Shown here piece by piece: positions 818-15,706 of a DNA stretch of 15,706 bases (the first letter of the stretch is position 1; each line of letters starts with the position of its first letter). This DNA comes from Haemophilus parainfluenzae. GTDB taxonomy: Bacteria; Pseudomonadota; Gammaproteobacteria; Enterobacterales; Pasteurellaceae. The translations under genes and the position numbers were made by a program. Under the pieces are notes generated by a model that did no database searches, was not told the DNA's origin, and saw only the letters and a program-made list of their open reading frames with translations. The stretch lies in assembly GCA_018381425.1 (NCBI GenBank), contig JAGZRY010000015.1, forward strand, positions 1-15,706, written 5' to 3'.

Positions 818-834
818 ATTTATCCCCTCTTTTG

Positions 835-843
835 ACCGCACTT
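835..843 (-). repeat. Haemophilus DNA uptake signal (USS)
   Basis: ACCGCACTT, the reverse complement of the 9-mer USS core AAGTGCGGT, lies next to the CRP site in the galE/protease intergenic region. Confidence 0.85.
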
Positions 844-846
844 TGG

Positions 847-862: not shown

Positions 863-908
863 GAATAAACATTTTTCTCTGGAATTTTGATTTGAGTCAT
901 TGAAGCGC

Positions 909-938
909 TTCGCGATGAGGCGAATAATAGCCTGCGAA
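909..938 (+). promoter_or_regulatory. Possible 5'-leader hairpin of the protease gene
   Basis: TTCGC (909-913) pairs with GCGAA (934-938) and AGGC (918-921) pairs with GCCT (930-933), giving nine base pairs interrupted by a four-base bulge. The hairpin ends 13 bases before the Shine-Dalgarno sequence AGGA. A role in mRNA stability or translation is possible but not shown. Confidence 0.3.
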
Positions 939-963
939 AATCGAAAAGATAAAGGAAGACAAC

Positions 964-3900: not shown

Positions 3901-4269
3901 CATATCAAAAACAAAGGTATGACAAAAGACGAAGTGCAGTTAAAAGACAACAATCGTGATTTAATCATTACCTCTGTAGGTTTACGTCCATCTATTCCAT
4001 TTGCAATTGGTGGCGTTCAATTAAATCTATTAGGCGATGTAGCTTATCATCGTTTCCATAAAGATAAAGCCGCTGAAGGCAGCTTGGTAATCAATAATCA
4101 AGGTGTCGCGAATCTTTATGGTAAAGAATTGAAAAATGTCGTCACGACAGGTGTGGCATTACAAGCGCAATTCACGCCGACATTCAGTGTGAAAGTGGGC
4201 TATCAAGGTGCTTACAACCACGATACCAAAGCCAATAATGTGAATGCAGAATTACGCTTCTCGTTTTAA
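964..4269 (+). CDS. Subtilisin-like (S8) autotransporter serine protease, NalP/SphB1 type
   Basis: Predicted to be exported and to process or release surface proteins, as NalP does in Neisseria; its own substrates are unknown. The signal peptide is residues 1-24, ending ANAAA. The S8 domain spans about 45-520: Asp72 (MDSGV), His155 (DSHGTHVGG), oxyanion Asn318 (TAGN) and Ser437 (GGTSMAAPH) form a complete catalytic set. A charged, probably helical stretch (540-600) is followed by an autotransporter-associated beta repeat (602-626, TGTLTLTGNNSFTG). A linker (about 777-835) leads into a C-terminal beta-barrel (about 843-1101) ending in LRFSF, the usual outer-membrane terminus. No lipobox Cys is seen, unlike NalP. 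AAGGAAG precedes the start. Its 1101 residues are close to NalP's length. Family confident, exact orthologue not. Confidence 0.93.
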   Translation: MKPQTLQKTALALLVGWYAANAAAYSEQGQAGNTKSWESAEYLKDWGLTSMNASTAYALGFNGSGVKIGVMDSGVLLNHPEFQDGRIHVVKTEGTYSKDGMRYPDAKFGFGGLNKDQPFDSKGKRNFDKNNNGDFIKGETFSIDGRWYKGINDSHGTHVGGTMAASRNGEGMHGVAFGANLYSANTGGTDNMTYGPNQDYEFFLRGYSQLAANGAKVINNSWGSNRRVNSAFSRAKGYSTDSASNYQWREITEYGVAMMDIANITETTNEKDVMYLKDREEAAKAYYQFATQGEKSFLDAAYEVAKEKGLVQVFTAGNRSLMSESFTRASLPYFRPDAEKYWVNVTGQRGGDGYPNDVTPTNKWWSKYYDYASGSYGAASSDIQIYNYAGDAKWWTIAAPATNIYSAYVHIMNEDDYGAVNNDNYGSPIYKSSGGTSMAAPHVSGALGVILSRYPYMTTNQARDVMLTTARQTTLRKGLEGKPLERWETEQGIPSNVWGWGILDLGKAMFGPGQFLGNVEINLNQNDVWSNDISDKAIKARQVEDQAEAATWTTRKAELQALMQNHAGATAEEKAEYQVGLAREATRNERAAQGYVGALTKNGTGTLTLTGNNSFTGEITVNEGQLSGLNQSLGSTQQVIVKQGATLEVLPKAEVTKPSDNGFVTKTLTSTAKTVTATVEKGGHFLLNNGIANVNATFADGSILVPNKFDEEILPQLQQNPQKAVSVQGTGSFVGAENAIVETPRTYDFFAVKNESNANTLKVTVHKKALSSAATTENEVAIANALDAATNRPAYQSLIWGTKENARQAFARLSYDEDLAAQQHNVLNGLLIRQQLAQPGAVRAQLNAGTQIWTSGTFTHFSTDSLSSHAYNQLVGIDATIDTNKHLGVFVGSTQNSHKIDRTSKDRAIHLGLTAEHRFNVLTPKIGFIQSWGKHEQRAEFAQGVKSHNQTQNVFAELAYTGLKGEHFAIEPYAGVSYMHIKNKGMTKDEVQLKDNNRDLIITSVGLRPSIPFAIGGVQLNLLGDVAYHRFHKDKAAEGSLVINNQGVANLYGKELKNVVTTGVALQAQFTPTFSVKVGYQGAYNHDTKANNVNAELRFSF
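3665..3673 (-). repeat. Haemophilus USS inside the autotransporter gene
   Basis: ACCGCACTT core lies within the C-terminal beta-barrel coding region. Confidence 0.8.
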
Positions 4270-4286
4270 CGATATTCAATAAGACA

Positions 4287-4318
4287 AAAGTGCGGTCAGT
4301 TTTGACCGCACTTTTTTT
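4287..4318 (+). terminator. Intrinsic terminator built from two inverted USS copies
   Basis: A 12-bp perfect stem (4287-4298 with 4303-4314) has a four-base loop and a T run to 4318. The arms carry AAGTGCGGT and ACCGCACTT, the common Haemophilus arrangement of paired uptake signals as a terminator. It ends the autotransporter transcript and may also serve the minus-strand fghA remnant. Confidence 0.92.
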
Positions 4319-4320
4319 GG

Positions 4321-4948
4321 TTACTTCAAAAATGCCTCATGATAGGCAATATGCTCACCAATAAAACTGGCGATGAAGTAATAGCTATGATCGTAGCCTT
4401 TGTGGAAACGCACATCGAGCGGTTGATTTGCTGCACGACAGGTTTCAATAAAATCTTCGGTAAGTAATTATGTTGTCAAAAACTCATCTTCCAAGCTCTG
4501 ATCAATACACATACCTTGCACTTTATATCCTTGTTGAATGAGCGAGTTGGCATCATATTGCTGCCATTTTTCACAATCTTTCCCTAAATAAGCAGTAAAA
4601 GCTTTTTCTCCCCAAGGCACAAGACTTGGCGACAAAATGGACGAAAAGGCAGAAACACTTTGATAACGTTCCCGGTTTCGCAATGCTAATACCAAGGCAC
4701 CGTGTCCCCCCATTGAATGTCCCATAATGGAACGTTTGCCGTTGGTAGGAAAATTTTCCTCAATCAGACGGGACAACTCGTTCAAAATATAATCATACAT
4801 TTGATAATTCATCGCCCAAGGCTGCTCGGTCGCATTAAGATAAAAGCCCGCACCTTGCCCTAAATCGTAAGCCACATCGTTCGGCACTTGCTCTCCGCGA
4901 GGGCTGGTATCGGGGGCAGCCACAATCACTTGATGGTCTGCCGCATAC
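4321..4948 (-). pseudogene. fghA: S-formylglutathione hydrolase (FghA/EstD) pseudogene, N-terminus lost
   Basis: The intact enzyme hydrolyses S-formylglutathione to formate and glutathione after the AdhC step of formaldehyde detoxification. This remnant begins at YAADHQVIV, roughly residue 75 of a family of about 275, and keeps the nucleophile motif GHSMGG. It then meets an in-frame TAA (4468-4470) after DEFLTT. The reading frame continues past the stop into clear family sequence, including FHKGYDHSYYFI with the catalytic His, and ends at 4321-4323 in HEAFLK. The stop is therefore a single-codon lesion, consistent with CAA to TAA. Upstream the homology switches abruptly to truC on the other strand. 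Minus-strand frame to 4968 is open, but the first seven residues (MLTNLIP) are truC antisense. Two independent lesions make function very unlikely. Confidence 0.9.
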
Positions 4949-5553
4949 GGGATCAAATTGGTCAGCATGTTTTCCCGCTACACCGTTTAGATCGCCCCAC
5001 CTCGGGCGTATTGCTGTTTGCCTTGAATAGCAAAATGGCGAAAAGGATGTGTGAATTATTCGAAAATTATCAAATGGAAAAAGGTTATTTGGCGGTGGTT
5101 CGAGGTTATTTACAAGGACAAGCCAGAGTAGCGTATCCGCTCAAAGTGATTTTAGATAAAGTGGCGGATAAATTTTCGCAGGAAAAGGAATCGAAAGAGG
5201 CGATTACCGATTATCAAAGTTTAGCAGCAGTGGAAATGCCTTACCCTGTGGGCAAGCATCAAACGGCACGTTATTCATTGGTCGAACTTTTCCCGCAAAC
5301 GGGGCGAAAACATCAGCTAAGACGGCACTTGAAGCACCTTTTCCACCTGATTATGGGCGATACTAAATATGGTGACTTACATCAAAACGGTGCCTTAAGT
5401 GAACACTCAGGCGTAAATTGATTGATGTTACATTCGCATTTTTTGCGTTTCGTTCATCCGAAAACTTCGCAAAAAATCACGATAAAAGCACCGCTTGATG
5501 ACCAATGGCAAAGGCTTTTTCAGTTCTTTAATTCGAGTTTTCCTGATTTTTAA
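4948..5553 (+). pseudogene. truC: tRNA pseudouridine(65) synthase TruC pseudogene, 5' end lost
   Basis: TruC makes pseudouridine 65 in tRNA. Homology starts at RDQIGQHVF, about residue 42 of a family of about 260, and includes the catalytic loop HRLDRPTSGVLL and the conserved TGRKHQLRRHL. The first 40 residues and the native promoter and start are gone. The frame upstream (to 4888) is fghA antisense. A TGA at 5419-5421, where the family has Arg (GVN-R-LMLHS, consistent with CGA to TGA), interrupts the frame. Recognisable sequence continues to the natural stop at 5551-5553 (FPDF). Residue changes such as HLFHLIMGD instead of a conserved Pro before IxGD suggest relaxed selection. Confidence 0.88.
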
Positions 5554-5574
5554 TTAGACAAAAAGAGAAACAAA

Positions 5575-5745
5575 ATGGATAATGCACTAATTTCATTAAA
5601 GCATGAGCAACAACAAGAAGCGGTTGAAGAAATCCAGAAACTTGCAAAACAAGGCATCAGTATGGGACAAGCAATTCAAATTATTGCGAATCAGTTAAGA
5701 GAAAAAATATCAACAAAATCAATTAGATCAAACGGAGGGAATTAA
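5575..5745 (+). CDS. YoaH-like UPF0181 family small protein
   Basis: A 56-residue protein, MDNALISLKHEQQQEAVEEI at the start, with the family's HEQQQ-AVE-IQKL and SMGQAIQIIANQLRE segments: two short amphipathic helices. Function of the family is not established. It has a weak AGAGAAA before the start and lies 21 bases after the end of the truC remnant; I recall truC and a UPF0181 gene being neighbours in H. influenzae, so this pair probably moved together. The tail (ISTKSIRSNGGN) is not typical of the family. It carries the Shine-Dalgarno sequence (GGAGGGA) for the next gene, whose ATG follows the stop codon directly. Confidence 0.8.
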   Translation: MDNALISLKHEQQQEAVEEIQKLAKQGISMGQAIQIIANQLREKISTKSIRSNGGN

Positions 5746-6222
5746 ATGAAAAAAATGATGATTGCAACATTAGCACTTATTTCTGCTAGTGTAATGGCTG
5801 CACCTAAAACAGAAACCACATCTACTGCTAAAGATCCAATAAATGGTCAGCCTGCAGTTGTTTTAAATGTGTATGATGTTAGCTCAAAATCACCCAGCCT
5901 TGTAAAAGGAACTCAAATTTCAAGAAGTCAAAATCAACAACTCTGTTGGAGCTCTCTCAATGTGCCATTAACAGGCCGAGTACGCATTGCTGAAGCATTT
6001 TATGCACCAGCACCAACCAATTTTGCCTCTGAAGGAATGAGCGTTACTGCATCGGAAGACAAAAAAGAGTTCTTAATTGTTGGTGATGTGATTGCAAAAG
6101 ATAAAGAAAATATTACCCGTTGTTGGAAATTTGGTAAATCAGATCCAATTGGTAAATATGGAATGGAAGTGCAAATTGGTAACTATGTATTTAGAAACCT
6201 TGCATTTGAAATAGTAAAATAA
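5746..6222 (+). CDS. Small exported protein of unknown function
   Basis: I do not recognise this 158-residue family. Residues 1-18 form a signal peptide (MKKMMIATLALISASVMA, then APKT), so it should be periplasmic or secreted. The mature part is largely beta-strand-like with no further membrane segment. It has only two cysteines, both followed by Trp (LCW at 67-68, RCW at 126-127), which could form one disulfide. The start directly follows the yoaH-like stop and uses GGAGGGA inside that gene, so the two are translationally coupled. A 24-bp perfect inverted repeat follows. The frame is intact although both flanks are decaying pseudogenes, so it is probably expressed and under selection. Confidence 0.8.
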   Translation: MKKMMIATLALISASVMAAPKTETTSTAKDPINGQPAVVLNVYDVSSKSPSLVKGTQISRSQNQQLCWSSLNVPLTGRVRIAEAFYAPAPTNFASEGMSVTASEDKKEFLIVGDVIAKDKENITRCWKFGKSDPIGKYGMEVQIGNYVFRNLAFEIVK

Positions 6223-6240
6223 TATATAAGCATCAGACAA

Positions 6241-6297
6241 AAAATCTGCACCTTAATTAGTTGAACTAAGCAATCAACTAATTAAGGTGCAGATTTT
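6241..6297 (+). terminator. Perfect 24-bp inverted repeat, probable terminator
   Basis: Arms 6241-6264 and 6274-6297 are exact reverse complements around a nine-base loop, with AAAA at one end and TTTT at the other. It lies 18 bases after the exported-protein stop. The stem is unusually long and mostly A/T, with a short GC block (CTGCACC), so it could be a bidirectional terminator or the scar of a small element. Confidence 0.65.
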
Positions 6298-6352
6298 GTA
6301 TAGCCGATATCTGGATAAAAACCTTCTCTCTATTCCAACATTGCTAGCACAT
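6298..6352. other. Unassigned DNA at the adhC breakpoint
   Basis: Fifty-five bases between the inverted repeat and the point where adhC homology stops. I see no gene, promoter or repeat here. It is the right end of the segment that replaced the 3' part of adhC. Confidence 0.5.
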
Positions 6353-6772
6353 TACTACAGCCCATATAGAGATAGATCGGCTGACCTTGATAAGAAAAAC
6401 GCGTCGTGCCGTCCGGCATTAAGCCTTTATCTTGCGTATCACGCACTGAGACGCATAAGTTGGTTTTACCTGAACGGCAAAAACTCGCATTCGCCACATT
6501 CTGCAGTGTAAAGCGGAATAACGTGATCGCCTGGTTTTACACTTAACACATCTTCACCCACAGCAACAACTACACCCGCACCTTCGTGCCCAAGCACTAC
6601 TGGGAATACGCCTTCAGGATCGCTTCCTGATAACGTAAATGCATCAGTATGGCACACGCCCGTGTGAGTGTTACGAATTAACACCTTGCCTTTGCGTGGC
6701 ATTTCTACGTCAATTTCCACAATTTATAAGGGTTGATTTGGTGCGAATGCAACCGCCGCACGAGATTGCAAC
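6353..6772 (-). pseudogene. adhC: S-(hydroxymethyl)glutathione dehydrogenase (AdhC) pseudogene
   Basis: The intact class III alcohol dehydrogenase oxidises the formaldehyde-glutathione adduct and reduces S-nitrosoglutathione. The remnant runs from SRAAVAFAPNQPL to about residue 170 of a family of about 378 (YLYMGCS), including [13 protein letters not shown] (catalytic zinc Cys) and GHEGAG. Lesions seen: no start codon before SRAAV; an in-frame TAA at 6724-6726 where CAA is expected (NQPL-stop-IVEIDVE); and an extra T in a five-T run (plus-strand A run 6479-6483) that shifts [10 protein letters not shown] to CEFLPFR and a stop. After 6353 all homology ends, so the cofactor domain is missing. 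The three lesions plus truncation make it certainly non-functional. Confidence 0.92.
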
Positions 6773-6794
6773 TTTTTATTTATAAGGAAGGGAA

Positions 6795-7202
6795 ATGACT
6801 TACGCCACCGCTAAAGCTGCTGAAAAAATCGGTATCTCTGCCCACACTTTACGCTTTTACGACAAAGAAGGCTTATTGCCTAACGTTGGATGCGATGAAC
6901 ACGGTAATCACCGTTTTACAGATAACGACTGGCAATGGTTGAGTTTATTACAATGCTTGAAAAATACAGGAATGAGCTTAAAAGATATTAAACGTTTTGC
7001 GGAATGTACCATCATCGGCGACGATACCATTGACGAACGTCTTGCATTATTTGAAAGCCAAACAGAAAATGTGAAGTGCCAAATTGCTGAATTAAAACGC
7101 TATTTAAACTTACTGGAATACAAGTTAGCATTTTATCAAAAAGCCAAAGCGTTAGGCTCAGTGGAAGCCGTGAATTTGCCACAGATTCCTGAAACAACCT
7201 AA
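6795..7202 (+). CDS. nmlR: NmlR/AdhR MerR-family regulator
   Basis: A MerR-family transcriptional activator of the aldehyde/S-nitrosoglutathione defence genes in Haemophilus and Neisseria. It has 135 residues: winged-helix DNA-binding part 1-70 (KAAEKIGISAHTLRFYDKEGLL, written here as helix-turn-helix residues 7-28) and a C-terminal dimerisation helix (about 80-118). Cysteines are at 33, 54, 71 and 95; 54, 71 and 95 coincide with those reported in NmlR proteins, while heavy-metal ligands of true MerR are absent. GGAAGGG precedes the ATG. Its usual target adhC-fghA is destroyed next door and only about 20 bases separate it from the adhC remnant, with no recognisable promoter. Its own promoter may be altered. 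Confidence 0.88.
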   Translation: MTYATAKAAEKIGISAHTLRFYDKEGLLPNVGCDEHGNHRFTDNDWQWLSLLQCLKNTGMSLKDIKRFAECTIIGDDTIDERLALFESQTENVKCQIAELKRYLNLLEYKLAFYQKAKALGSVEAVNLPQIPETT

Positions 7203-7241
7203 GTTAAGAGTTTGGTCCAACTTTTGGGTTGGTCAAAGTTG

Positions 7242-7250
7242 ACCGCACTT
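7242..7250 (-). repeat. Haemophilus USS after nmlR
   Basis: ACCGCACTT core in the nmlR-ppa intergenic region, preceded by TTG as in many USS copies. Confidence 0.8.
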
Positions 7251-7272
7251 TTGCTCATGCTCATAGATAAAT

Positions 7273-7299
7273 AAAAAGGCATCAATTTGATGCCTTTTT
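7273..7299. terminator. Bidirectional terminator between nmlR and ppa
   Basis: An 11-bp stem (AAAAAGGCATC, 7273-7283, with 7289-7299) and AATTT loop, flanked by A and T runs so that it can act on both convergent transcripts. Confidence 0.88.
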
Positions 7300-7317
7300 A
7301 TTCATTAACATGAAAAA

Positions 7318-7848
7318 TTAACGTTCATTCCAACGTTTGATAGATTCACGAATCACTTCTTTCGCTTCTTCTACATCGCCCCAGTGAGTCACTTTTGTTG
7401 AACCTGGTTTTTTCAATGCTTTGTAGTTATTGAAGTGGAATTCAATTTGTTTGATTAATTGCGCAGGTACATCTGCAAGACTGTTGTATGCATTGCCGGT
7501 GTCGCGATCATCTGCTGGCACACAAACGATTTTATCGTCCACTTCGCCATCATCAACGAATTTCATCACACCGATTACTTTTGCTTCAAGGAATACACCA
7601 GTTGCAAGTGGTTGGCGAGTTAATAATAAAACGTCTAACTCATCGCCATCTTCGTCTAAAGTTTGCGGAATGAAACCATAGTTAGTTGGTTTTGCGAAGA
7701 TCGCTGGCTCAACACGGTCTAATTGGAACGCTGCAACTTTACGGTTCCATTCGATTTTGTGGCAGCTACCTTCTGGAATTTCATTTACCACATTGATAAT
7801 GCCGGCATCTACATCGCCTGGCGTTAAAATTTGATTAAAATCAGCCAT
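7318..7848 (-). CDS. ppa: Inorganic pyrophosphatase (family I)
   Basis: Hydrolyses pyrophosphate to phosphate with Mg2+, pulling biosynthetic reactions forward; cytoplasmic and usually essential. At 176 residues it has the same length as E. coli Ppa. The family signature DGDELDVLLL with three acidic metal ligands is at residues 67-76 (Asp67, Asp69, Asp72). Also seen are NYGFIPQT (56-63) and the basic KALKKPG near the C-terminus. AAGGA lies just before the start. Monocistronic, convergent with nmlR and divergent from the permease gene. No anomalies. Confidence 0.97.
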   Translation of the reverse strand: MADFNQILTPGDVDAGIINVVNEIPEGSCHKIEWNRKVAAFQLDRVEPAIFAKPTNYGFIPQTLDEDGDELDVLLLTRQPLATGVFLEAKVIGVMKFVDDGEVDDKIVCVPADDRDTGNAYNSLADVPAQLIKQIEFHFNNYKALKKPGSTKVTHWGDVEEAKEVIRESIKRWNER

Positions 7849-7885
7849 TGTTTTTCCTTTTTTTGATTACGTTAAAAACTTTCAG

Positions 7886-7894
7886 AGTATAGCA
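7886..7894 (-). promoter_or_regulatory. ppa promoter (extended -10)
   Basis: On the minus strand TGCTATACT is an extended -10 element about 38 bp before the ppa start. The upstream -35 region is only a T-rich stretch. Confidence 0.55.
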
Positions 7895-7974
7895 GTTTTT
7901 AGTCTATAAAAAAATATGCGAAAAACATCCTCAAAACTGACCCTCCTTCCCGCCAGACTGACAAAAAAACGATT

Positions 7975-7990
7975 GCGCAAACGTTTACTT
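7975..7990. promoter_or_regulatory. PurR operator upstream of the adenine permease
   Basis: GCGCAAACGTTTACTT matches the PurR box consensus (ACGCAAACGTTTNCNT type) at its conserved core CGCAAACGTTT. It overlaps the -35 region of the promoter that follows, so repression by purine-bound PurR is expected. Confidence 0.8.
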
Positions 7991-8009
7991 TTAAATAATT
8001 TGCTATAAA
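7981..8009 (+). promoter_or_regulatory. Promoter of the adenine permease gene
   Basis: Extended -10 TGCTATAAA (TATAAA at 8004-8009) with a weak -35 (ACGTTT, 7981-7986) at 17 bp, embedded in the PurR box. Confidence 0.6.
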
Positions 8010-8048
8010 ATAGCACGTCTTTTTTTGATTATTAACCTAGGGGACTTT

Positions 8049-9365
8049 ATGTCAAGTTTAGAAAAAACCTTTGAACTCAGCAAACGCGGTTCAACGGTTC
8101 GTCAAGAAATCATTGCGGGTTTAACCACCTTCTTAGCCATGGTGTATTCCGTGATTGTTGTGCCTAAAATGCTTGGTGATGCAGGCTTTCCGGCTGAATC
8201 AGTGTTTATCGCAACCTGTTTAGTCGCGGGACTTGGATCGATTTTAATCGGCTTTTGGGCAAATGCGCCAATGGCGATCGGCTGTGCCATTTCATTAACT
8301 GCTTTCACTGCATTTAGCTTAGTGATCGGTCAACATGTTTCTATTCCTGTGGCATTAGGTGCGGTATTCCTCATGGGTTTGGTGTTCACCTTAATTTCGG
8401 CAACAGGTATTCGTTCATGGATTTTACGTAATCTACCGTCAAGCATTGCACACGGTGCGGGGATCGGGATCGGCTTATTCTTACTTTTAATCGCCGCAAA
8501 TGGCGTAGGCTTAGTGGTCGGCAACCAAGCGGGTTTACCGGTTAAATTAGGTGATTTCACCTCATTCCCAGTAATGATGTCTTTAATTGGTCTTGCATTC
8601 ATTATCGGCTTAGAAAAAATGAAAGTGAAAGGCGGGATTTTATGGGTCATCATCGCAATTACTATCGTTGGTTTAATCTTCGATCCAAACGTAACATTCA
8701 ATGGCCAAATTTTCAAAATGCCAACCTTTGGTGAAAACTCACTTTTCTTACAATTAGATTTACAAGGTGCATTACAGCCTGCCATTTTACCCATTGTCTT
8801 TGCGTTAGTGATGACGGCGGTATTTGATGCAACAGGTACTATTCGTGCCGTTGCAGGACAAGCGGACTTATTAGATAAAGACGGACAAATCATCAACGGC
8901 GGCAAAGCCTTAACCTCTGACTCTGTAAGTAGCTTATTCTCAGGTTTATTCGGTACTGCACCAGCAGCCGTTTATATTGAATCAGCAGCAGGGACAGCCG
9001 CAGGCGGTAAAACCGGTATCACCGCTATCGTAGTCGGCGTATTGTTCTTATTAATGTTATTCTTCCAACCGCTTGCATTCTTAGTGCCTGGTTATGCAAC
9101 TGCACCAGCGTTAATGTATGTGGGCTTATTAATGCTAAGCAATGTGAGCAAATTAGACTTCGATGATTTCGTCGGCGCAATGAGTGGCTTAGTTTGCGCG
9201 GTATTCATCGTGCTAACGGCAAACATCGTAACGGGTATTATGCTTGGCTTTGCGGCATTAGTGATTGGTCGTATCGTGAGTGGTGATGTGAAAAAACTCA
9301 ACATCGGCACCATTATCATCGCCATTGTCCTTGTCGCATTCTATGCTGGCGGTTGGGCGATTTAA
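8049..9365 (+). CDS. Adenine permease, AdeP/AdeQ type (NCS2, AzgA-like subfamily)
   Basis: Inner-membrane proton symporter for adenine, feeding purine salvage. At 438 residues it is strongly hydrophobic, with about 13-14 membrane spans. Family motifs seen include [18 protein letters not shown] near the N-terminus, [17 protein letters not shown] in the central substrate region and [18 protein letters not shown]. The C-terminus AFYAGGWAI is like the E. coli adenine permeases. I chose ATG 8049, preceded by TAGGGGA; the upstream in-frame TTG at 8025 has no ribosome-binding site and would precede the family's usual start. The PurR box upstream fits control by purines. AdeP versus AdeQ is not resolved. 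Confidence 0.92.
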
Positions 9366-9382
9366 TTAAATACAATCTTGAT

Positions 9383-9409
9383 AAGGCGAACAAATAGTTC
9401 GCCTTTTTT
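9383..9409 (+). terminator. Intrinsic terminator of the permease gene
   Basis: Stem AAGGCGAAC (9383-9391) with GTTCGCCTT (9397-9405), five-base loop, T run to 9409. Confidence 0.92.
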
Positions 9410-9440
9410 ATTTCTAGCCTAAAAAACAATCGAAAAACCA

Positions 9441-9449
9441 ACCGCACTT
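9441..9449 (-). repeat. Haemophilus USS upstream of trhP
   Basis: ACCGCACTT core followed by TTACTTT. Confidence 0.8.
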
Positions 9450-9496
9450 TTACTTTACAAATCCCTAAATCCGCCTAAAATACAGGCCTTTAATAC

Positions 9497-9515
9497 AGCT
9501 TGCCAAAAGCAAGCT
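9497..9515 (+). promoter_or_regulatory. Small hairpin in the trhP leader
   Basis: AGCTTGC and GCAAGCT pair perfectly around a CAAAA loop, 29 bases before the trhP start codon. There is no T run, so it is not a terminator. Role unknown. Confidence 0.35.
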
Positions 9516-9544
9516 ACTGACCTGAAATCAGACAAGAGAACATT

Positions 9545-10924
9545 ATGACAACCCCATTTAAACCTGAATTACTCTCCCCTGCGGGCTCCCTCAAAAACAT
9601 GCGTTACGCCTTCGCATATGGCGCGGATGCCGTTTATGCAGGCCAACCTCGTTACAGCTTACGTGTACGTAACAATGAATTTAATCACGCCAATTTAAAA
9701 ATCGGGATCGATGAAGCCCATGCGATTGGCAAAAAATTCTATGTAGTGGTGAACATTGCACCGCATAATTCCAAACTCAAAACCTTTATCAAAGATTTAC
9801 AACCTGTCATCGACATGGGCCCTGATGCCTTAATTATGTCTGACCCAGGCTTAATCATGTTGGTGCGTGAAAACTTCCCGGATATTGATATTCACCTTTC
9901 TGTACAAGCGAATGCGGTAAACTGGGCAACGGTAAAATTCTGGAAACAAATGGGGTTAACTCGTGTGATTTTATCGCGCGAATTATCCATTGAAGAGATC
10001 GCTGAAATTCGCCAACACGTGCCCGATATCGAACTCGAAATTTTCGTACATGGTGCATTATGCATGGCGTATTCTGGTCGTTGCTTACTTTCTGGCTATA
10101 TCAACAAACGCGACCCAAACCAAGGCACTTGCACGAATGCTTGCCGTTGGGAATACAAAATGGAAGAAGGCACCACGGATGAAGTAGGCAACATCGTGCC
10201 GAAAATCGATCCCGCTCAACAAATCGAAGTGAAAAATGTGGCACCAACCTTGGGCGAAGGTGCGGTAACGGATAAAGTCTTCCTTTATACCGAATCACAA
10301 AAGCCAGATGAGCAAATGACCGCTTTTGAAGATGAGCACGGCACTTACTTTATGAACTCAAAAGATCTGCGTGCAGTACAACACGTGGAAAAATTGACCG
10401 CACTTGGTGTGCATTCTTTAAAAATCGAAGGTCGTACTAAATCATTCTATTACTGCGCAAGAACCGCACAAGTTTATCGCAAAGCCATTGATGACGCAGC
10501 TGCGGGCAAACCATTTGATGAAAGCTTAATGGATACGTTGGAATCCCTTGCTCATCGTGGTTATACCGAAGGATTCTTACGTCGCCATACGCACGATGAA
10601 TACCAAAATTACGAATATGGCTACTCTATCTCTGAACGTCAACAGTTTGTCGGTGAATTTACTGGTAAACGTAACGAACAAGGTATGGCTGAAGTGGCAG
10701 TGAAGAATAAATTCTTACTTGGTGATGAAGTGGAAATGATGACACCACAAGGCAACATCGTCTTTAAGATTGAAAAAATTCTCAATCGCAAAAACGAAAA
10801 TGTGGAAGCCGCACTTGGCGATGGTCATTTTGTCTTTTTAGATGTGCCACAAGACGTCCAACTTGATTATGCATTGTTGATGCGTAACTTGGTCAACACC
10901 AACACACGCAATCCACACAGTTAA
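9545..10924 (+). CDS. trhP: tRNA uridine-34 hydroxylation protein TrhP (YegQ, U32 family)
   Basis: Needed for prephenate-dependent formation of 5-hydroxyuridine at tRNA wobble position 34, the first step to cmo5U. Formerly annotated as a U32 peptidase. It has 459 residues (E. coli about 453). The N-terminal TIM-barrel part starts PELLSPAGSL. The U32 signature EIFVHGALCMAYSGRC lies at 165-180. Four cysteines (173, 180, 196, 200) are placed as in iron-sulfur-binding U32 proteins. KIEGRTKSFYY follows in the second half. The start at ATG 9545 follows AAGAGAA, a modest ribosome-binding site. Single-gene unit; nothing odd. Confidence 0.95.
   Translation: MTTPFKPELLSPAGSLKNMRYAFAYGADAVYAGQPRYSLRVRNNEFNHANLKIGIDEAHAIGKKFYVVVNIAPHNSKLKTFIKDLQPVIDMGPDALIMSDPGLIMLVRENFPDIDIHLSVQANAVNWATVKFWKQMGLTRVILSRELSIEEIAEIRQHVPDIELEIFVHGALCMAYSGRCLLSGYINKRDPNQGTCTNACRWEYKMEEGTTDEVGNIVPKIDPAQQIEVKNVAPTLGEGAVTDKVFLYTESQKPDEQMTAFEDEHGTYFMNSKDLRAVQHVEKLTALGVHSLKIEGRTKSFYYCARTAQVYRKAIDDAAAGKPFDESLMDTLESLAHRGYTEGFLRRHTHDEYQNYEYGYSISERQQFVGEFTGKRNEQGMAEVAVKNKFLLGDEVEMMTPQGNIVFKIEKILNRKNENVEAALGDGHFVFLDVPQDVQLDYALLMRNLVNTNTRNPHS
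10397..10405 (-). repeat. Haemophilus USS inside trhP
   Basis: ACCGCACTT core in the coding sequence (LTALGV). Confidence 0.8.
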
Positions 10925-10939
10925 TTTGTTAAAAAATTG

Positions 10940-10967
10940 TTGCATTTGTTGATAAATAAACTATAAT
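10940..10967 (+). promoter_or_regulatory. Strong sigma70 promoter after trhP
   Basis: TTGCAT (10940-10945), 16 bp spacer, perfect TATAAT (10962-10967). It points away from trhP toward a terminator only about 80 bases on, with no open frame between. Confidence 0.7.
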
Positions 10968-10973
10968 GTGTCC

Positions 10974-11054
10974 CATACCTGATTTGTTAATTCAACAACT
11001 CATAGTATGACTCCAAATATTTTGCCCTTTCACCTTTTTGAAAGGGCTTTTTTT
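10974..11054 (+). ncRNA. Candidate ~80-nt small RNA
   Basis: The interval between the promoter at 10940-10967 and the terminator at 11024-11054 contains no plausible coding frame. It could yield an RNA of about 80 nucleotides with a single-stranded AU-rich body (GATTTGTTAATTCAACAAC) and a 3' GC stem plus U7 tail, the typical shape of an Hfq-dependent regulatory RNA. I do not recognise the family. Alternatively it is just the trhP terminator with an unrelated TATAAT. Confidence 0.45.
11024..11054 (+). terminator. Intrinsic terminator before the cas operon
   Basis: Stem GCCCTTTCA (11024-11032) with TGAAAGGGC (11039-11047), six-base loop, seven T. It ends trhP and/or the candidate small RNA and insulates cas3. 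Confidence 0.92.
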
Positions 11055-11150
11055 ATGCCCTAAAAAGACACTCCAAAATCATATAAATCACTCCATTTTA
11101 AAATCAATTAACTTCATATTATTTATGAAAAATATATAAAAAAATCATTC

Positions 11151-11180
11151 TTGACATTAAAATGAGATTAGGAGTAAATT
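11151..11180 (+). promoter_or_regulatory. Probable cas3 promoter
   Basis: Perfect TTGACA (11151-11156), 18-bp spacer, TAAATT (11175-11180), giving a leader of about 37 bases. The stretch 11055-11223 is otherwise AT-rich DNA without a gene. AAAGGA just before 11224 is the ribosome-binding site. Confidence 0.6.
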
Positions 11181-11223
11181 AAGTGAAGTAATTAAAGTAA
11201 TCATAAATATAAAGGATTATTTT

Positions 11224-13515
11224 ATGTTTGCAAAACTCTCCTACTACGCCCATTCTGCTGAAGATAAACTCGGCAATCTCTTGCCTTACGAACATTGGCA
11301 AACCTTGCAAAGCCATTCAGTCAATGTTGGTGAAATGGCGGCGGAGTTTGCTCGGGTATTCGGTGCTCAGGAAATTGCCTGCCAGACGGGACAGTTTCAT
11401 GACTTAGGGAAATATTCAGAAGCCTTTAACCATCGATTGCATGGTGGCCCATCAGTCGATCATGCCACCGCCGGAGCCAAAATTGCTGTCGAGCGTTGGG
11501 GGAATGTGATCGGTAAGCTGATGGCGTTTTGCATTGCGGGGCATCATGCCGGGTTGGCAAATGGAAACGGTGAAGGTGATAACCGCCGTACGTTAAAGCA
11601 GCGGTTAGCCTTGCAATTCGGTGCAGATATTCCCGTTCTCGATAACTTGTGGCAACAAGAAATCAAGCTCCCCAAAAACTTATCCGCCCCACCACTCAAA
11701 GCTGACGCGCATCATCCTTTTTTCTCCTACGCCTTCTTCACCCGAATGCTCTATTCCTGCTTGGTGGATGCCGATTATCTTGATACCGAAGCCTTTTATT
11801 CAAACCTAGAAAACAAAACTGTCAAGCGCGGCGGTTATCCCGATTTAAACGCCTTACAACACAATTTCAATCAATTTATCAATAATTTCAGACGACGCAT
11901 CGCCCAGGCTTCAGAGCAAACCGAAGCCGAAAAACGCAATGCCGCCTTAAACCGCCTGCGCAGCGAAATTCTCGATTACGCCGTAGAACAAGCGGCACAA
12001 CCGCAAGGGCTGTTCACGCTAACTGTGCCGACCGGCGGCGGAAAAACCTTCACTTCCATGGCATTCGCGCTGGAACACGCCAAGCGGCATGATATGCGAC
12101 GCGTGATTTACGTCATTCCGTTCACCAGCATCATCGAGCAAAACGCCGCTGAGTTTCGCAAAGCCTTTGGCGAATTGGGCGAACAAGCCGTGTTGGAGCA
12201 CCACAGCACCTTCGACGACAGCGAACTGCAAGACGACACCACCAAAGACAAATTGCGCCTTGCTTCGGAAAACTGGGACGCGCCGATTGTCGTGACCACC
12301 GCCGTGCAATTCTTCGAATCCCTCTTTGCCGACCGCTCCTCGCGCTGCCGCAAGCTGCACAACATCGCAGGTTCCGTCATCATCCTCGACGAAGCGCAAA
12401 TGCTGCCGCTCAATCTTTTGCTGCCCATCATGCAAGCTATCAAAGAATTGGCGCAGAACTATCATTGCTCTGTCGTCATGTGCACCGCCACCCAGCCAGC
12501 CGTGCAAGCCGAAAACGGCTTCTATCGCGGCTTTGAAAATGTGCGCGAAATTGCTCCAGAACCAACCGCACTTTTCGACAAACTGCGCCGCACCACCGTG
12601 CAACACATCGGCACACAAACCGACGCCGACTTGCTCGCTAAACTTGGCGAACATCCGCAAATGCTGGTTATCGTCAATAACCGTCGTCACGCCCGCAGCC
12701 TGTACGACCAAGCCAAACACCTTGACGGTACGTTCCATCTGACCACCTTGATGTGCGCCAAACACCGCAGCCAAAAGCTCGATGAGATTCGAGGCCGTCT
12801 GAAAAACGGCGAACCCTGCCGCGTTATCGCCACCTCCTTAATTGAAGCCGGCGTTGATGTAGATTTTCCGCTGGTGATGCGCGCCGAAGCAGGTTTAGAC
12901 AGCGTTGCGCAAGCAGCCGGACGTTGCAACCGCGAAGGCAAAAGGCCGTCTGAAAACAGCTTTGTCTGGATATTCGCGCCTGAGGATAAATGGAAAGCCC
13001 CGCCTGAACTTGCCGCCCAAGCTGCCGTTATGCGCTTGACTGCCGATGAGTTTTCAGGCGACCTCTTATCCACCCAAGCCATCGCCGCCTATTTCAAAGA
13101 CCTTTATGACTTAAAAGGCAAAGAACTGGATAACAAACAAATCCTGCAAATGCACCGGAACGCCGGGCAAAGCCTCGATTTCCCATTCCAAACCATCGCT
13201 GACAAATTCTGCATGATCGAAAGCCATATGCAGCCGCTGATTATTCCGTTTGATGCTGAGGCTGAAAGCCTCATTAGCAGCCTGCACCACGCCGACCACA
13301 TTGGCGGACTCTTACGCAAACTGCAACCCTACACTGTCCAAATTCCCGAAAAAGCCCTCGCTGCTTTGTATAAAGCAGGGCGTATCGAACCGATTAACGA
13401 GAAAAACTTCGGCAAACAGTTTTATACGCTGATTGGGTTGGATTTGTATGATGAAGTGGCGGGGCTGAGTTGGGAGGATACGGTATTTTTGAAGGGGGAG
13501 AGTTTGGCGTTTTAA
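11224..13515 (+). CDS. cas3: Cas3 helicase-nuclease, type I-C CRISPR-Cas
   Basis: Degrades DNA after recruitment to a Cascade-bound target. It has 763 residues. The N-terminal HD nuclease has His31, His59-Asp60 (FHDLGKYS), His80 and His107-His108 (GHHAG). The SF2 helicase follows with Walker A PTGGGKT (269-275), DEAQ box 389-392, TATQP (421-425), motif V around SLIEAGVDVDFP and motif VI QAAGRCNREG (563-572). All catalytic motifs are intact. It is assigned to I-C because cas5c lies downstream. G+C is far above the neighbours in the helicase part (36 of 60 bases at 12001-12060). Two Neisseriaceae uptake sequences lie in it, so transfer from Neisseriaceae is likely. Normally cas5c follows directly; here a foreign gene intervenes. 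Confidence 0.96.
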   Translation: MFAKLSYYAHSAEDKLGNLLPYEHWQTLQSHSVNVGEMAAEFARVFGAQEIACQTGQFHDLGKYSEAFNHRLHGGPSVDHATAGAKIAVERWGNVIGKLMAFCIAGHHAGLANGNGEGDNRRTLKQRLALQFGADIPVLDNLWQQEIKLPKNLSAPPLKADAHHPFFSYAFFTRMLYSCLVDADYLDTEAFYSNLENKTVKRGGYPDLNALQHNFNQFINNFRRRIAQASEQTEAEKRNAALNRLRSEILDYAVEQAAQPQGLFTLTVPTGGGKTFTSMAFALEHAKRHDMRRVIYVIPFTSIIEQNAAEFRKAFGELGEQAVLEHHSTFDDSELQDDTTKDKLRLASENWDAPIVVTTAVQFFESLFADRSSRCRKLHNIAGSVIILDEAQMLPLNLLLPIMQAIKELAQNYHCSVVMCTATQPAVQAENGFYRGFENVREIAPEPTALFDKLRRTTVQHIGTQTDADLLAKLGEHPQMLVIVNNRRHARSLYDQAKHLDGTFHLTTLMCAKHRSQKLDEIRGRLKNGEPCRVIATSLIEAGVDVDFPLVMRAEAGLDSVAQAAGRCNREGKRPSENSFVWIFAPEDKWKAPPELAAQAAVMRLTADEFSGDLLSTQAIAAYFKDLYDLKGKELDNKQILQMHRNAGQSLDFPFQTIADKFCMIESHMQPLIIPFDAEAESLISSLHHADHIGGLLRKLQPYTVQIPEKALAALYKAGRIEPINEKNFGKQFYTLIGLDLYDEVAGLSWEDTVFLKGESLAF
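11887..11896 (-). repeat. Partial Neisseriaceae uptake sequence (core)
   Basis: TTCAGACGAC is the reverse complement of GTCGTCTGAA, the ten-base core of the AGGTCGTCTGAA dialect; the first two bases differ. Could be chance on its own. Confidence 0.4.
12565..12573 (-). repeat. Haemophilus USS inside cas3
   Basis: ACCGCACTT within the helicase region, in a gene that also has Neisseriaceae uptake sequences. Either chance or acquired since arrival in Haemophilus. Confidence 0.7.
12792..12803 (+). repeat. Neisseriaceae DNA uptake sequence (AG-DUS), copy 1
   Basis: AGGCCGTCTGAA, an exact 12-mer DUS, encodes part of RGRLKN in cas3 (around residue 523). Confidence 0.85.
12943..12954 (+). repeat. 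Neisseriaceae DNA uptake sequence (AG-DUS), copy 2
   Basis: AGGCCGTCTGAA again, in a different reading frame (KRPSE, about residue 573). Two exact 12-mers in different frames argue against a protein constraint and for a Neisseriaceae past. Confidence 0.85.
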
Positions 13516-13520
13516 GCTTT

Positions 13521-13539
13521 TAATATAACTTCTTTAGAA
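13521..13539 (-). promoter_or_regulatory. Predicted target of the mini-CRISPR guide, with TTC PAM
   Basis: Reading the minus strand, TTC (13539-13537), the type I-C PAM, is followed by TAAAGAAGTTATATTA (13536-13521). The bases after the lone repeat at 15022 are TAAAGTAGTTAGATTA. They agree at 14 of 16 positions, and differ only at 6 and 12, where type I guides are flipped out of the duplex. Beyond position 16 the match stops, apart from 23-25. The site begins two bases upstream of the -35 box of the 440-residue gene, so Cascade bound there should block RNA polymerase. Partial matching of this kind allows binding without cleavage in known CreA/CreR systems. Confidence 0.75.
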
Positions 13540-13542
13540 GTT
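13527..13542. repeat. 16-bp palindrome overlapping PAM and seed
   Basis: AACTTCT-TT-AGAAGTT, with seven-base arms and a two-base centre, lies just after cas3 and just before the -35 box. The centre is too short for a good RNA hairpin, so a protein operator is as likely as a terminator. Confidence 0.5.
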
Positions 13543-13569
13543 GAATGTTTAAAAATACAAGAGTAATAT
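13541..13569 (+). promoter_or_regulatory. Probable promoter of the 440-residue membrane protein gene
   Basis: TTGAAT (13541-13546), 17-bp spacer, TAATAT (13564-13569). It gives the accessory gene its own transcription start inside the cas operon. AAGGA (13600-13604) is the ribosome-binding site. Confidence 0.6.
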
Positions 13570-13611
13570 ACTTAACAGTGTTACATTATTTATAACCTTA
13601 AGGAAAACCCT

Positions 13612-14934
13612 ATGAATCAAGTTTTGTTAGATATTAAAGATGAATTGAATAATATTATTCAACAATTAGAAAGCTCCATCTCTAGTGAAGATGTATTAAA
13701 TTATGCAAGAAATAGTTGGACATATCCAGGAATAGCAAGAGAAGAGTTAGTTACTGAAGCACAAAAGGTAATTACTCTCATTGAGACCAAAGGAAATGAT
13801 GAAATTAATGATGAGAATAATGTACTTTCCCGCTATGTAAAAGCTCTGGAATTTTTAAGAGCTAATACAATTCCTCAAATATGGGGAAATCCTCATGAAG
13901 CAGTTTCAGCCTACATAATCACGATAAACGCCTTAAGGACAGCCCTAGAACCTTTTTTGATTAAAGACGATAGTAAAGAGTTAGCTATTCAGTTAAAGAA
14001 CCAAAGAAGAAGAGTCAGGAGTTTAGAGGCAACATTAAATGATCTTGAACCTAGAACATCTCCGTTAAAGGATATGGTTTCCAGTATAGAACAAGCACAT
14101 GAGACAGCAGAGCAATTACCTACAGATTTGGAATCGTTAAGGGAAGCCAGGAAGACTATAGGTCAATTAGTAACTGAATCTACTGCAGATAAAACGGCAG
14201 TTTCAAATACAAAAACAGAAATTGAAAACCTTCAAGCAGAATTAAAAGGTGCTTCTAAAGAAGCCAAAGATATATTAGAAGAATGTAAAAGCACCTATGC
14301 TGCAGCTACAAGTGTGGGGTTAGCAGCGGCCTTTTCCGAACGCTCTGATAGTTTATCTACATCTATGTGGGTATGGGTTGGTGGATTGGTTTTATCGCTT
14401 AGTGCAGGTGGTTACTTTGGATCAGTTCAATTACAAAAGTTACTAGAGTTAATGGCACAGCAGGATATTTCTAGTTTAAGTATGTCTATCAATTTCATTA
14501 TGGCAATTTTGTCAATTGGTGCACCAATATGGTTCTCTTGGTTGGCAACCAAACAAATTGGGCAACGATTTAAATTATCGGAAGATTACGCCTTTAAAGC
14601 CTCTGTTTCTCGTGCTTATGAAGGTTTCCGTAAAGAAACAGCTCGGTTTGATAAAGAAATGGAAGCTAAATTGCTTAGTTCTGCTTTAACGAGATTAGAT
14701 GAGTTGCCTTTACGTTTAGTTGAGGCTGAAAATCATGGAAGCCCTTGGCATGAACTAGCTTCATCAAATATTGTTAAGCAAGCCATGTCTAAAATCCCAA
14801 GTTTCCCAGATAAAGTGAAAGAACTTGCAGGAAATGCTATGAGTGAGAGACAAGAATCAATCAAGGTTAATCAGGCGAAAAATAACAATGCACCAAGAAA
14901 AAATGATGATTCATCAGACAAAGACGATGTTTAA
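13612..14934 (+). CDS. Coiled-coil protein with two membrane segments, CRISPR accessory gene of unknown family
   Basis: I do not recognise the family. 440 residues: an N-terminal helical domain (1-118); a long heptad-rich, charged coiled coil (about 120-230, with RRRVRSLEATLNDLE and EIENLQAELKGASKEAKDI); membrane segment 1 (about 252-272, WVWVGGLVLSLSAGGYFG); a short loop; membrane segment 2 (about 292-312, INFIMAILSIGAPIWFSWLA); a soluble helical part (about 320-410); and a disordered, charged tail (411-440). No signal peptide and no enzyme motif. It is AT-rich (14 G+C of 60 at 13621-13680) between GC-rich cas genes, so of different origin. Its promoter is the apparent target of the crRNA-like guide encoded just downstream, so it is probably repressed by Cascade. 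A pore-forming or membrane-disturbing effector is a reasonable guess only. Confidence 0.85.
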   Translation: MNQVLLDIKDELNNIIQQLESSISSEDVLNYARNSWTYPGIAREELVTEAQKVITLIETKGNDEINDENNVLSRYVKALEFLRANTIPQIWGNPHEAVSAYIITINALRTALEPFLIKDDSKELAIQLKNQRRRVRSLEATLNDLEPRTSPLKDMVSSIEQAHETAEQLPTDLESLREARKTIGQLVTESTADKTAVSNTKTEIENLQAELKGASKEAKDILEECKSTYAAATSVGLAAAFSERSDSLSTSMWVWVGGLVLSLSAGGYFGSVQLQKLLELMAQQDISSLSMSINFIMAILSIGAPIWFSWLATKQIGQRFKLSEDYAFKASVSRAYEGFRKETARFDKEMEAKLLSSALTRLDELPLRLVEAENHGSPWHELASSNIVKQAMSKIPSFPDKVKELAGNAMSERQESIKVNQAKNNNAPRKNDDSSDKDDV

Positions 14935-14947
14935 TCGAATAACAGAA

Positions 14948-14956
14948 AAGTGCGGT
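14948..14956 (+). repeat. Haemophilus USS between accessory gene and mini-CRISPR
   Basis: AAGTGCGGT in the extended context AAAGTGCGGTCAGTTTTC, close to the full USS consensus, 14 bases after the accessory gene's stop codon. Confidence 0.85.
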
Positions 14957-14976
14957 CAGTTTTCTCGTTGTTTTTT

Positions 14977-14988
14977 AGGTCGTCTGAA
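14977..14988 (+). repeat. Neisseriaceae DNA uptake sequence (AG-mucDUS dialect)
   Basis: AGGTCGTCTGAA is exactly the dialect known as AG-mucDUS (Neisseria mucosa group). It lies 20 bases after a Haemophilus USS and immediately before the degenerate CRISPR repeat. Confidence 0.75.
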
Positions 14989-14990
14989 AA

Positions 14991-15022
14991 CTTTTCGCAC
15001 TTAACCGTGCGTGGATTGAAAC
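14991..15022 (+). CRISPR. Lone degenerate type I-C CRISPR repeat (first repeat of a mini-CRISPR)
   Basis: The 3' part GTGCGTGGATTGAAAC is the hallmark of type I-C repeats. CGCAC (14996-15000) pairs with GTGCG (15007-15011) around a six-base loop, as in I-C repeats, and the region is 32 bases, the normal length. The 5' end (CTTTT) has decayed. Cas5c should cut at the stem base to leave the 11-base handle TGGATTGAAAC. No second intact copy follows at spacer distance, so it is not an ordinary array. Confidence 0.8.
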
Positions 15023-15047
15023 TAAAGTAGTTAGATTAGTCAGCTAA
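15023..15047 (+). ncRNA. Guide ('spacer') of the CreA/CreR-like mini-CRISPR
   Basis: The bases directly after the repeat, starting TAAAGTAGTTAGATTA, match the accessory-gene promoter at 13536-13521 next to a TTC PAM. Only about 25 bases lie before the next stem-loop, shorter than the usual 34-35 of I-C spacers. Transcription could come from the cas operon mRNA or its own promoter; a TTTAAT (14930-14935) with a poor -35 is the only candidate seen. Confidence 0.65.
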
Positions 15048-15082
15048 TCCGCCCCTTCCTTACGAAGGGGCGCGTATACAAA
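15047..15082 (+). CRISPR. GC-rich stem-loop, possible second, decayed repeat
   Basis: CGCCCCTTC (15050-15058) pairs with GAAGGGGCG (15064-15072) around CTTAC. After the stem comes CGTATACAAAA, where an I-C repeat would have CGTGGATTGAAAC, so stem position and first bases agree. No T run follows, so it is not a terminator. It could form the 3' end of the guide RNA, or be only a leader hairpin of cas5c. Confidence 0.45.
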
Positions 15083-15095
15083 AAAGGAGAATCAA

Positions 15096-15706
15096 ATGAA
15101 CCAAATCCGCCTACACGTTTGGGGCGATTATGCCTGTTTTACCCGTCCGGAGATGAAGGTGGAGCGGGTGTCTTATGATGTCATCACGCCGTCGGCGGCG
15201 CGCGGGATTTTGGCGGCGGTGCATTGGAAGCCTGCAATTCGGTGGGTGATTGACCGGATTTATGTGTTGAAGCCGATTCGGTTTGAGTCGGTGCGGCGCA
15301 ATGAGTTGGGCGGCAAGATTTCGGCGGGCAAGGTCAGTGGCGCAATGAAGCGTAAGAGCGTTGCCGATTTATATACGCTGATTGAAGACGACCGCCAGCA
15401 GCGCGCGGCGACGGTGCTTAAAGACGTGGCGTATGTAATTGAAGCCCATGCGGTGCTGACGGCAAAAGCGGGGGCGGATGAGACCGTTACCAAGCATATC
15501 GAGATGTTCAAACGCCGTGCGAAAAAGGGGCAATGTTTCCAGCAGCCTTGTTTGGGCGTGCGTGAATTTCCTGCCGATTTTGCGTTGATTGACGAAGGCG
15601 AGCCGCTGCCGCCGTCGGCGTTATTGGAAAGCGAGGCAAACCGCGATTTAGGCTGGATGCTGCACGATATTGATTTTGACCACGGCAACACGCCGCATTT
15701 TTTCCG
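15096..15706 (+). CDS. cas5c: Cas5c (Cas5d), type I-C crRNA endonuclease and Cascade subunit (cut by window edge)
   Basis: In type I-C, Cas5c replaces Cas6. It cuts the repeat RNA at the base of its stem, holds the 5' handle and joins Cas8c and Cas7 in Cascade. The 203 residues visible begin MNQIRLHVWGDYACFTRPEM. They include ERVSYDVITPSAARGIL (23-39) and YVIEAH (113-118), the region where the family's nuclease His lies, then CFQQPCLGVREF (147-158). The family is about 220-240 residues, so a short C-terminus is missing. AGGAGA lies five bases before ATG 15096. Very GC-rich (39 of 60 at 15181-15240), Neisseria-like. cas8c and cas7 would be expected next. Confidence 0.94.
   Translation, partial: MNQIRLHVWGDYACFTRPEMKVERVSYDVITPSAARGILAAVHWKPAIRWVIDRIYVLKPIRFESVRRNELGGKISAGKVSGAMKRKSVADLYTLIEDDRQQRAATVLKDVAYVIEAHAVLTAKAGADETVTKHIEMFKRRAKKGQCFQQPCLGVREFPADFALIDEGEPLPPSALLESEANRDLGWMLHDIDFDHGNTPHFF

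Follow-up and report, generated by a model that had tools for sequence, protein, structure and literature searches.

A mini-CRISPR guide that most likely silences an interchangeable back-up defence between cas3 and cas5c in a type I-C locus of Haemophilus parainfluenzae

The window analysed here is a stretch of 15,706 nucleotides from Haemophilus parainfluenzae (contig JAGZRY010000015.1, positions 1 to 15,706), whose right end carries part of a type I-C locus of the CRISPR (clustered regularly interspaced short palindromic repeats) system: cas3, an insertion of 1.6 kb and the start of cas5c. The insertion comprises one gene, coding for a protein of 440 residues, and a mini-CRISPR. As judged from sequence comparison among related loci, Cascade (CRISPR-associated complex for antiviral defence) most likely silences an interchangeable back-up defence housed in the slot between cas3 and cas5c, here called the payload. 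For the window itself it is quite probable that type I-C Cascade, directed by the guide of the mini-CRISPR, holds the 440-residue gene silent as long as Cascade is present and active.

The mini-CRISPR and its target in the window

The mini-CRISPR is located upstream of cas5c at 14991-15083, inside the cas locus and outside the array, and on the forward strand comprises a first repeat (R1), a guide and a second repeat (R2), in this order. R1 (14991-15022) has an intact handle, its 3' end at 15022 reading GTGGATTGAAAC, and a short stem of its own with a fold of -7.5 kcal/mol, equalled in 10 of 200 shuffles. The spacer-like guide occupies 15023-15047, where bases 1-16 (15023-15038, TAAAGTAGTTAGATTA) are the ones matching the target. 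R2 (about 15048-15083) is degenerate, with a 9-bp stem-loop at 15050-15072 and a degraded handle, CGTATACAAAA; the reference for this degradation is the array repeat of a related locus, L009 (GCAGCCGCCTTCAGGCGGCTGTGTATTGAAAC), the window stopping before its own array. The stretch 15023-15082 folds at -21.5 kcal/mol and none of 200 shuffles folds as well. A spacer-like guide between repeat-like sequences, with the 5' handle kept in R1 and, relative to the L009 repeat, the stem kept and the handle lost in R2, is the arrangement of CreA, for which the published account describes an R1 that keeps the Cas5-binding handle and an R2 that loses it (PMC9458426).

The target, that is, the first 16 protospacer bases (TAAAGAAGTTATATTA), is on the minus strand at 13521-13536. 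Guide and target agree in 14 of 16 bases, with mismatches solely at bases 6 and 12, and the TTC read on the minus strand at 13537-13539 corresponds to the protospacer adjacent motif (PAM). Over the seed, defined as guide positions 1-5 and 7-11, all 10 positions are paired beside TTC; in CreTA, too, the gene under repression is preceded by a TTC-flanked target with bases 1-5 and 7-11 paired (PMC8501985). Directly downstream of the target there is a putative promoter of the payload gene on the forward strand (13541-13569), with a -35-like TTGAAT (13541-13546) and a -10-like TAATAT (13564-13569) separated by 17 bases.

When the 150-base promoter region was shuffled with its dinucleotides kept, none of 20,000 shuffles contained a 14/16 match beside TTC, whereas 14 of 4,000 did once the PAM requirement was dropped; with the PAM, none of 1,500 shuffles of the 1,475-base gap contained one. 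No second target of the guide was identified in the window at up to two mismatches outside bases 6 and 12, so there is no evidence for a target in the cas3 promoter. The initial annotation of this DNA had described R1 ending in GTGGATTGAAAC at 15022 with the guide adjoining it, and the 14/16 match beside TTC with its mismatches at 6 and 12 as improbable by chance; the base patterns are as described and the shuffles agree with the claim. It had counted a single repeat, to which R2 with its strong stem-loop must be added.

Co-variation of guide and target among related loci

Related loci came from two sets. A genome scan with cas5c retained the best 80 of at least 571 confirmed loci, close relatives being over-represented, and whole-genome searches found a close cas5c in 30 of 140 genomes of one family and 16 of 83 of another; these genomes supplied 26 longer regions. 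Both cas3 and cas5c were placed in 99 loci, window included, the first set contributing 76 and the second 23. Excluded were five loci lacking cas3 in the first DNA taken (L007, L008, L028, L060 and L079, of which L007 and L008 return as the longer L152 and L153) and three where no cas3 was found (L124, L148 and L151). Gapped loci are those with at least 110 bases between cas3 and cas5c (64 loci) and gapless loci those where the two lie within 110 bases (35 loci). The threshold for R1 was 10/12, and R1 and guide had to be found at most 170 bases from cas5c.

R1 with its handle and a guide was identified beside cas5c in 45 of the 64 gapped loci, referred to as guide loci: 44 at or above the threshold and L010, accepted by hand at 9/12; L047 has two candidate repeats, and the first was chosen by hand. 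Gapless loci, in contrast, reached the threshold in 0 of 35 cases (best score 9/12, in four loci), which indicates that the guide goes with the payload.

Targets were taken as the best site from -30 to +250 bases of the cas3 end, and as a control each guide was tried on loci with a seed unlike its own in at least four positions (1,670 swaps). At least 9 of the 10 seed positions matched beside TTC near the cas3 end for the own guide in 34 of 45 loci and for 2 of the 1,670 swaps; at 8 or more positions the counts were 36 of 45 and 16 of 1,670. Allowing any TTN gave 40 of 45 versus 8 of 1,670 at the stricter level and 43 of 45 versus 88 of 1,670 at the looser one. An earlier count on 30 loci, relatives kept in, had given 25 of 30 own guides and 13 of 870 swaps.

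The 45 guide loci contain 30 distinct seeds, so that a single inherited match does not account for the agreement, and 28 of these seeds have a match. Agreement among the 28 was found at positions 1-5, 7, 8 and 10 in 26 to 28 cases, at position 9 in 23 and at position 11 in 24, followed by 20, 19, 17 and 16 at positions 13 to 16. Bases 6 and 12 are at chance level, with 5 and 8 of 28 (6.1 expected each), and beyond base 16 agreement drops to 14 and 13 at positions 17 and 18 (10.6 and 10.1 expected). An unexplained exception is position 21 (15 of 28, 8.4 expected). Since the seed positions also served to choose the site, it is the swap controls that carry the weight. In a set of 17 loci with related guides of the TAAA/CAAA type, own pairs agree at 9.24 of 10 positions versus 7.53 for permuted pairs, a difference reached in 0 of 5,000 permutations, and in 1 of 5,000 when the set was reduced to nine distinct guides. 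Co-variation with bases 6 and 12 left free had been proposed as a check in the initial annotation, and the 45 loci pass it.

Two other features of the targets were recorded. Of the 28 representative loci, 21 have an A at target position 6, though this base is unpaired with the guide. A 16/16 match including bases 6 and 12 is present in three of the four TTA-flanked targets (L009, L121 and L145) and in none of the 36 TTC-flanked ones; the effect of fuller pairing may be offset by a weaker PAM such as TTA.

Payloads and surroundings of the cas3-cas5c slot

The payload of the window (13612-14934, forward strand) is an open reading frame (ORF) of 440 residues, all-helical in the structure model; parts of it are coiled coil, and its hydropathy profile shows one clear hydrophobic segment. 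The model has a mean predicted local distance difference test score of 72.6 and a predicted template modelling score of 0.33, and its search returned no PDB match at E 0.001, so that no function is obtained from the fold. No Pfam family was matched. The PADLOC and NCBIfam matches were weak, fell over the coiled coil and were taken as composition. At least 1,937 relatives are detectable among 7,993 scored candidates, with conserved residues mainly at 159-378, and their distribution is sporadic: they were found in 8 of 399 genomes of the order of genome G142, and at 1e-30 in none of 369 class genomes and 140 family genomes, sets that have no positive control. A search of six individually selected genomes gave one weak match (1.1e-7). 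Neither cas3 nor cas5c was identified around eight of the relatives, in up to 19 kb each, and some of these neighbourhoods are phage-like by gene make-up, as assessed by eye. Relatives are also encoded on one phage record and 14 plasmid records, and in 8 of these plasmid records the similarity covers 80% or more of the protein. Being sporadic, mobile and without a fixed partner suggests the behaviour of defence genes. Toxicity of the protein is possible.

Named payloads, comprising antiphage systems, candidates and remnants, were identified in 15 of the 45 guide loci: GapS4 in L004, L113 and L121; SIR2-HerA in L009, L013 and L142; Kiwa in L111 and L112; Gabija in L143; component A of PD-T4-4 in L116, where the scan covered the component A gene only; the defence candidate PDC-M48B in L145; Dsr2 in L014; and type III restriction with a DrmD-like helicase in L152 and L153, with a remnant in L006. 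Eight of the 15 were scanned directly (L004, L009, L014, L112, L116, L143, L145 and L152) and the other seven named by tblastn to these. All but L014 have a target near cas3 matching at 8 or more seed positions, flanked by TTC in eight, TTA in four and TTT in two. Among the other 30 guide loci, six carry a DUF2188 protein (L010 scanned, five by similarity), two an unnamed protein of 443 residues (L005 and L122) and one is the window, leaving 21 with inserts that match none of these payloads. A SIR2-like label for the 443-residue protein was dropped as no family supports it. In some of the 21, inspection by eye showed the target to be followed by a short hairpin or by a small ORF for a hydrophobic product, as would be the case for a CreT-like RNA or a small toxin.

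Gapped loci without a guide beside cas5c number 19. Their contents are Thoeris (L001); a protein matching PADLOC HEC-06, Orf5 and SspE (L002, and L146 by similarity); a 590-residue protein without family (L003); Dsr2 by similarity (L016); SIR2 and part of HerA (L115); DitA-like genes (L117); OLD-like genes (L011 and L120 scanned; L118, L119, L123 and L150 by similarity); and short gaps with unassigned contents (L038, L041, L065, L070 and L072). The last one, L076, has a mini-CRISPR (7589) further upstream, before a 103-residue ORF and not adjoining cas5c, and is therefore outside the 45; its guide has a 10/10 seed match beside TTC with mismatches at 6 and 12. When other repeat ends were sought in the 19 loci this was the sole convincing match, the rest reaching a chance-like 8/10. 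An R2-like hairpin before cas5c is kept in L118, L119 and L123, which would fit a joint replacement of payload, R1 and guide.

Two observations concern the traffic of payloads. In L111 and L112 the Kiwa genes are located between fragments of a DrmD-like helicase and of a type III methylase, one payload having been replaced within another; that the putatively guide-controlled promoter drives Kiwa itself is uncertain. The core of the Haemophilus-type uptake signal (AAGTGCGGT or its complement) and that of the Neisseria-type signal (GTCTGAAA) are both found at most 230 bases upstream of cas5c in 6 of the 48 loci examined: the window (14946-14990), L001, L002, L003, L009 and L145. Such paired signals could let a payload pass by transformation between the Haemophilus and Neisseria groups. 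The record of L003 (CABDVE010000001.1) is titled Pseudomonas stutzeri; its coordinates are those of genome G129, of the same family as the Haemophilus-like G001, and it is likely mislabelled.

The genes flanking the slot belong to the type I-C set (cas3-cas5c-cas8c-cas7-cas4-cas1-cas2 plus array), of which the window shows cas3 and cas5c before it ends. The type I-C helicase-nuclease gene cas3 (11224-13515, forward) was identified by the Cas3c profile (E 3.6e-230) and by cas3 core and HD models, and its stop codon is the left edge of the slot. The start of cas5c, coding for the Cascade subunit that processes CRISPR RNA (crRNA), was identified by Cas5c models at 15096-15704 (forward), where it runs off the window; among the best 80 loci of the scan the closest cas5c is that of Haemophilus quentini (L001), at 99%. 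By tblastn with the named genes of L009 as queries, all six genes from cas5c through cas2 are present in 35 of the 45 guide loci, and cas5c, cas8c and cas7 are recognisable in 41; the remaining four, window among them, end at most 1.7 kb from cas5c. An array is present in 28 of the 45. Outside the cas region, the window contains an autotransporter with a subtilase passenger (964-4269), for which EprS is the closest NCBIfam model, far below its cut-off (442 versus 1700 bits), and a perfect inverted repeat of 24 bases with 9 bases between the arms (6241-6297).

Proposed mechanism, known relatives and alternatives

If the system works as CreA does, cleavage of R1 and R2 by Cas5c would yield a crRNA-like RNA. 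Cascade would take it up and base-pair over some 16 positions next to TTC, leaving bases 6 and 12 flipped out, and the resulting short, incomplete R-loop would block the promoter or transcription; as the R-loop would not be full, no cleavage by Cas3 is proposed to follow. A phage anti-CRISPR, or the loss of cas5c, cas8c or cas7, would then release the payload, probably a second-line and perhaps abortive antiphage effector, and an invader that had disabled CRISPR would meet another defence. For the group as a whole, it is moderately likely that the space between cas3 and cas5c is a fixed socket that receives complete antiphage systems, namely Gabija, Kiwa, GapS4, SIR2-HerA, PD-T4-4, type III restriction and, in the window, the 440-residue membrane protein. 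A co-evolving CreA guide would hold them silent, and a phage or plasmid disabling Cascade by an anti-CRISPR would thereby turn on a second, unrelated immune system, in the manner of a guide-RNA dead-man's switch for layered immunity.

At its core, the initial annotation proposed that a CreA-like guide of type I-C is directed at the promoter region of a protein gene. Strong support for this comes from the co-variation in 45 loci, from the lack of R1 at threshold in gapless loci and from the degeneration of R1 and R2 as published for CreA. As to function it had offered addiction to the cas genes or a back-up abortive response, and had missed that the slot takes interchangeable payloads. With named antiphage payloads, candidates and remnants included, in 15 of 45 guide loci, back-up defence is the likelier of the two.

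The design is shared with several known systems. CreTA shares the guide between two degenerate repeats in the cas locus, the TTC-flanked target, the seed pairing and the handle pattern of R1 and R2; it differs in being type I-B with a small toxic RNA (CreT), in place of which the window has a 440-residue ORF with its at least 1,937 protein relatives, and other type I-C loci have antiphage systems. CrePA comprises a protein toxin, CreP, typically of the KilA-N kind, which is repressed by Cascade with a CreA guide and released by anti-CRISPRs (PMC12737573). It is similar in having a protein under a CreA-type guide, repression being predicted in our case, and differs in its toxin, since the window protein has no Pfam match, hence no KilA-N, and the payloads of the related loci are defence systems. 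In Citrobacter rodentium a type I-E locus contains a Cascade-repressed toxin between cas3 and the next cas gene (PMC12055562); payload, crRNA-like guide and partly matching PAM-flanked target are placed alike. Besides the type, the differences are that the toxin ORF is short and that the guide, upstream of it, is encoded on the opposite strand. CreR regulators are crRNA-like and act on cas promoters (PMC12737573), using for repression a mini-CRISPR guide with a partial match, as is proposed here; unlike theirs, the present target precedes the payload, L014 excepted, with cas5c downstream in the same direction. These systems establish the mechanism. The present case differs from them in its type I-C context, in the slot fixed between cas3 and cas5c and, most of all, in the payloads. 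The literature search, which did not extend to the mini-array survey of Shmakov (2023, NAR 51:8150), found no paper on Cascade-repressed antiphage systems in type I-C. That survey reportedly describes mini-arrays and repeats standing alone whose sequences partly complement the promoters of cas genes or of cargo genes such as toxin-antitoxins.

A number of observations weigh against silencing of a back-up defence. At the window, the initial annotation had set the target against the -35 box; the target does lie directly upstream of a -35/-10 pair, but this pair is a weak match (8 of 12 consensus bases) that the promoter tool does not list, its score being below the threshold of the tool. The 440-residue family has no known function. 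In nine of the 45 guide loci no seed match of 8 or more was found beside TTC: seven match only beside TTA (L009, L121 and L145, and L013 with 9/10 in the seed and 11/16 overall) or TTT (L147 with 10/10, L152 with 9/10 and L153 with 8/10), L058 has a guide without a target from -30 to +250 bases of the cas3 end, and the guide of L014 has none near cas3. For the seven TTA- or TTT-flanked sites the control is the TTN count, where 88 of the 1,670 swapped guides attain 8/10. The target of L031 reaches 8/10, as does that of L142, which shares the guide of the window yet matches no better. Many antiphage payloads (Thoeris, OLD-like, the Dsr2 of L016) occupy the slot without a guide, and the position of cas5c makes an effect on the cas genes possible.

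This last point leads to autoregulation of the CreR kind, in which the target promoter would also serve cas5c-cas8c-cas7 by read-through, Cascade would tune its own level and the payload would be a passenger. It agrees with cas5c following the payload in the same direction, with the CreR regulators known from other type I systems (PMC12737573), and with L014, where the guide matches, just upstream of the R1 and cas5c of this locus, a site at L014 7824-7840 (first 14 of 14 bases, TTC); that site looks like autoregulation, and L014 fits CreR better. For the loci in general the explanation is improbable: the 35 gapless operons, though equally in need of autoregulation, all lack R1 at threshold; in the other matched loci the site is near the cas3 end, before the payload and up to 10-11 kb from cas5c (L152 and L153); and the 18 gapped loci for which no guide was found indicate that cas5c expression needs none.

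A strict addiction module, where the 440-residue protein would be a toxin that only punishes the loss of Cascade as CreT or the KilA-N CreP do, is unlikely, although less so than autoregulation. The guide-target design is that of CreTA and of the C. rodentium toxin (PMC8501985, PMC9458426, PMC12055562), a helical membrane protein is a plausible toxin, and the short inserts with hairpins or small hydrophobic ORFs would suit it; the restriction systems, Gabija and other defences among the 15 named payloads do not, and the eight relatives of the 440-residue protein with neither cas3 nor cas5c in the up to 19 kb around them indicate that no CRISPR lock is needed there. Chance resemblance, or the relic of a decayed array without present role, is very improbable. 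In AT-rich DNA a 14-base pattern with up to two mismatches is expected 0.2 times per window, but a match of the observed quality did not arise in the 20,000 shuffles, own guides exceed swapped ones by far (34 of 45 against 2 of 1,670), and bases 6 and 12 are free in many distinct guides while the other seed bases are kept.

If silencing of a back-up defence by Cascade is true, CRISPR effectors would be sensors of their own sabotage, controlling complete immune systems beyond toxins, which would account for the defence systems found inside cas operons and for the silent storage of costly ones. It would also provide a search rule for candidate antiphage systems (TTC followed by guide bases 1-5 and 7-11, with the guide directly upstream of cas5c), under which unnamed payloads of the slot, such as the 440-residue protein, become antiphage candidates, and the order of action of layered defences would become testable.

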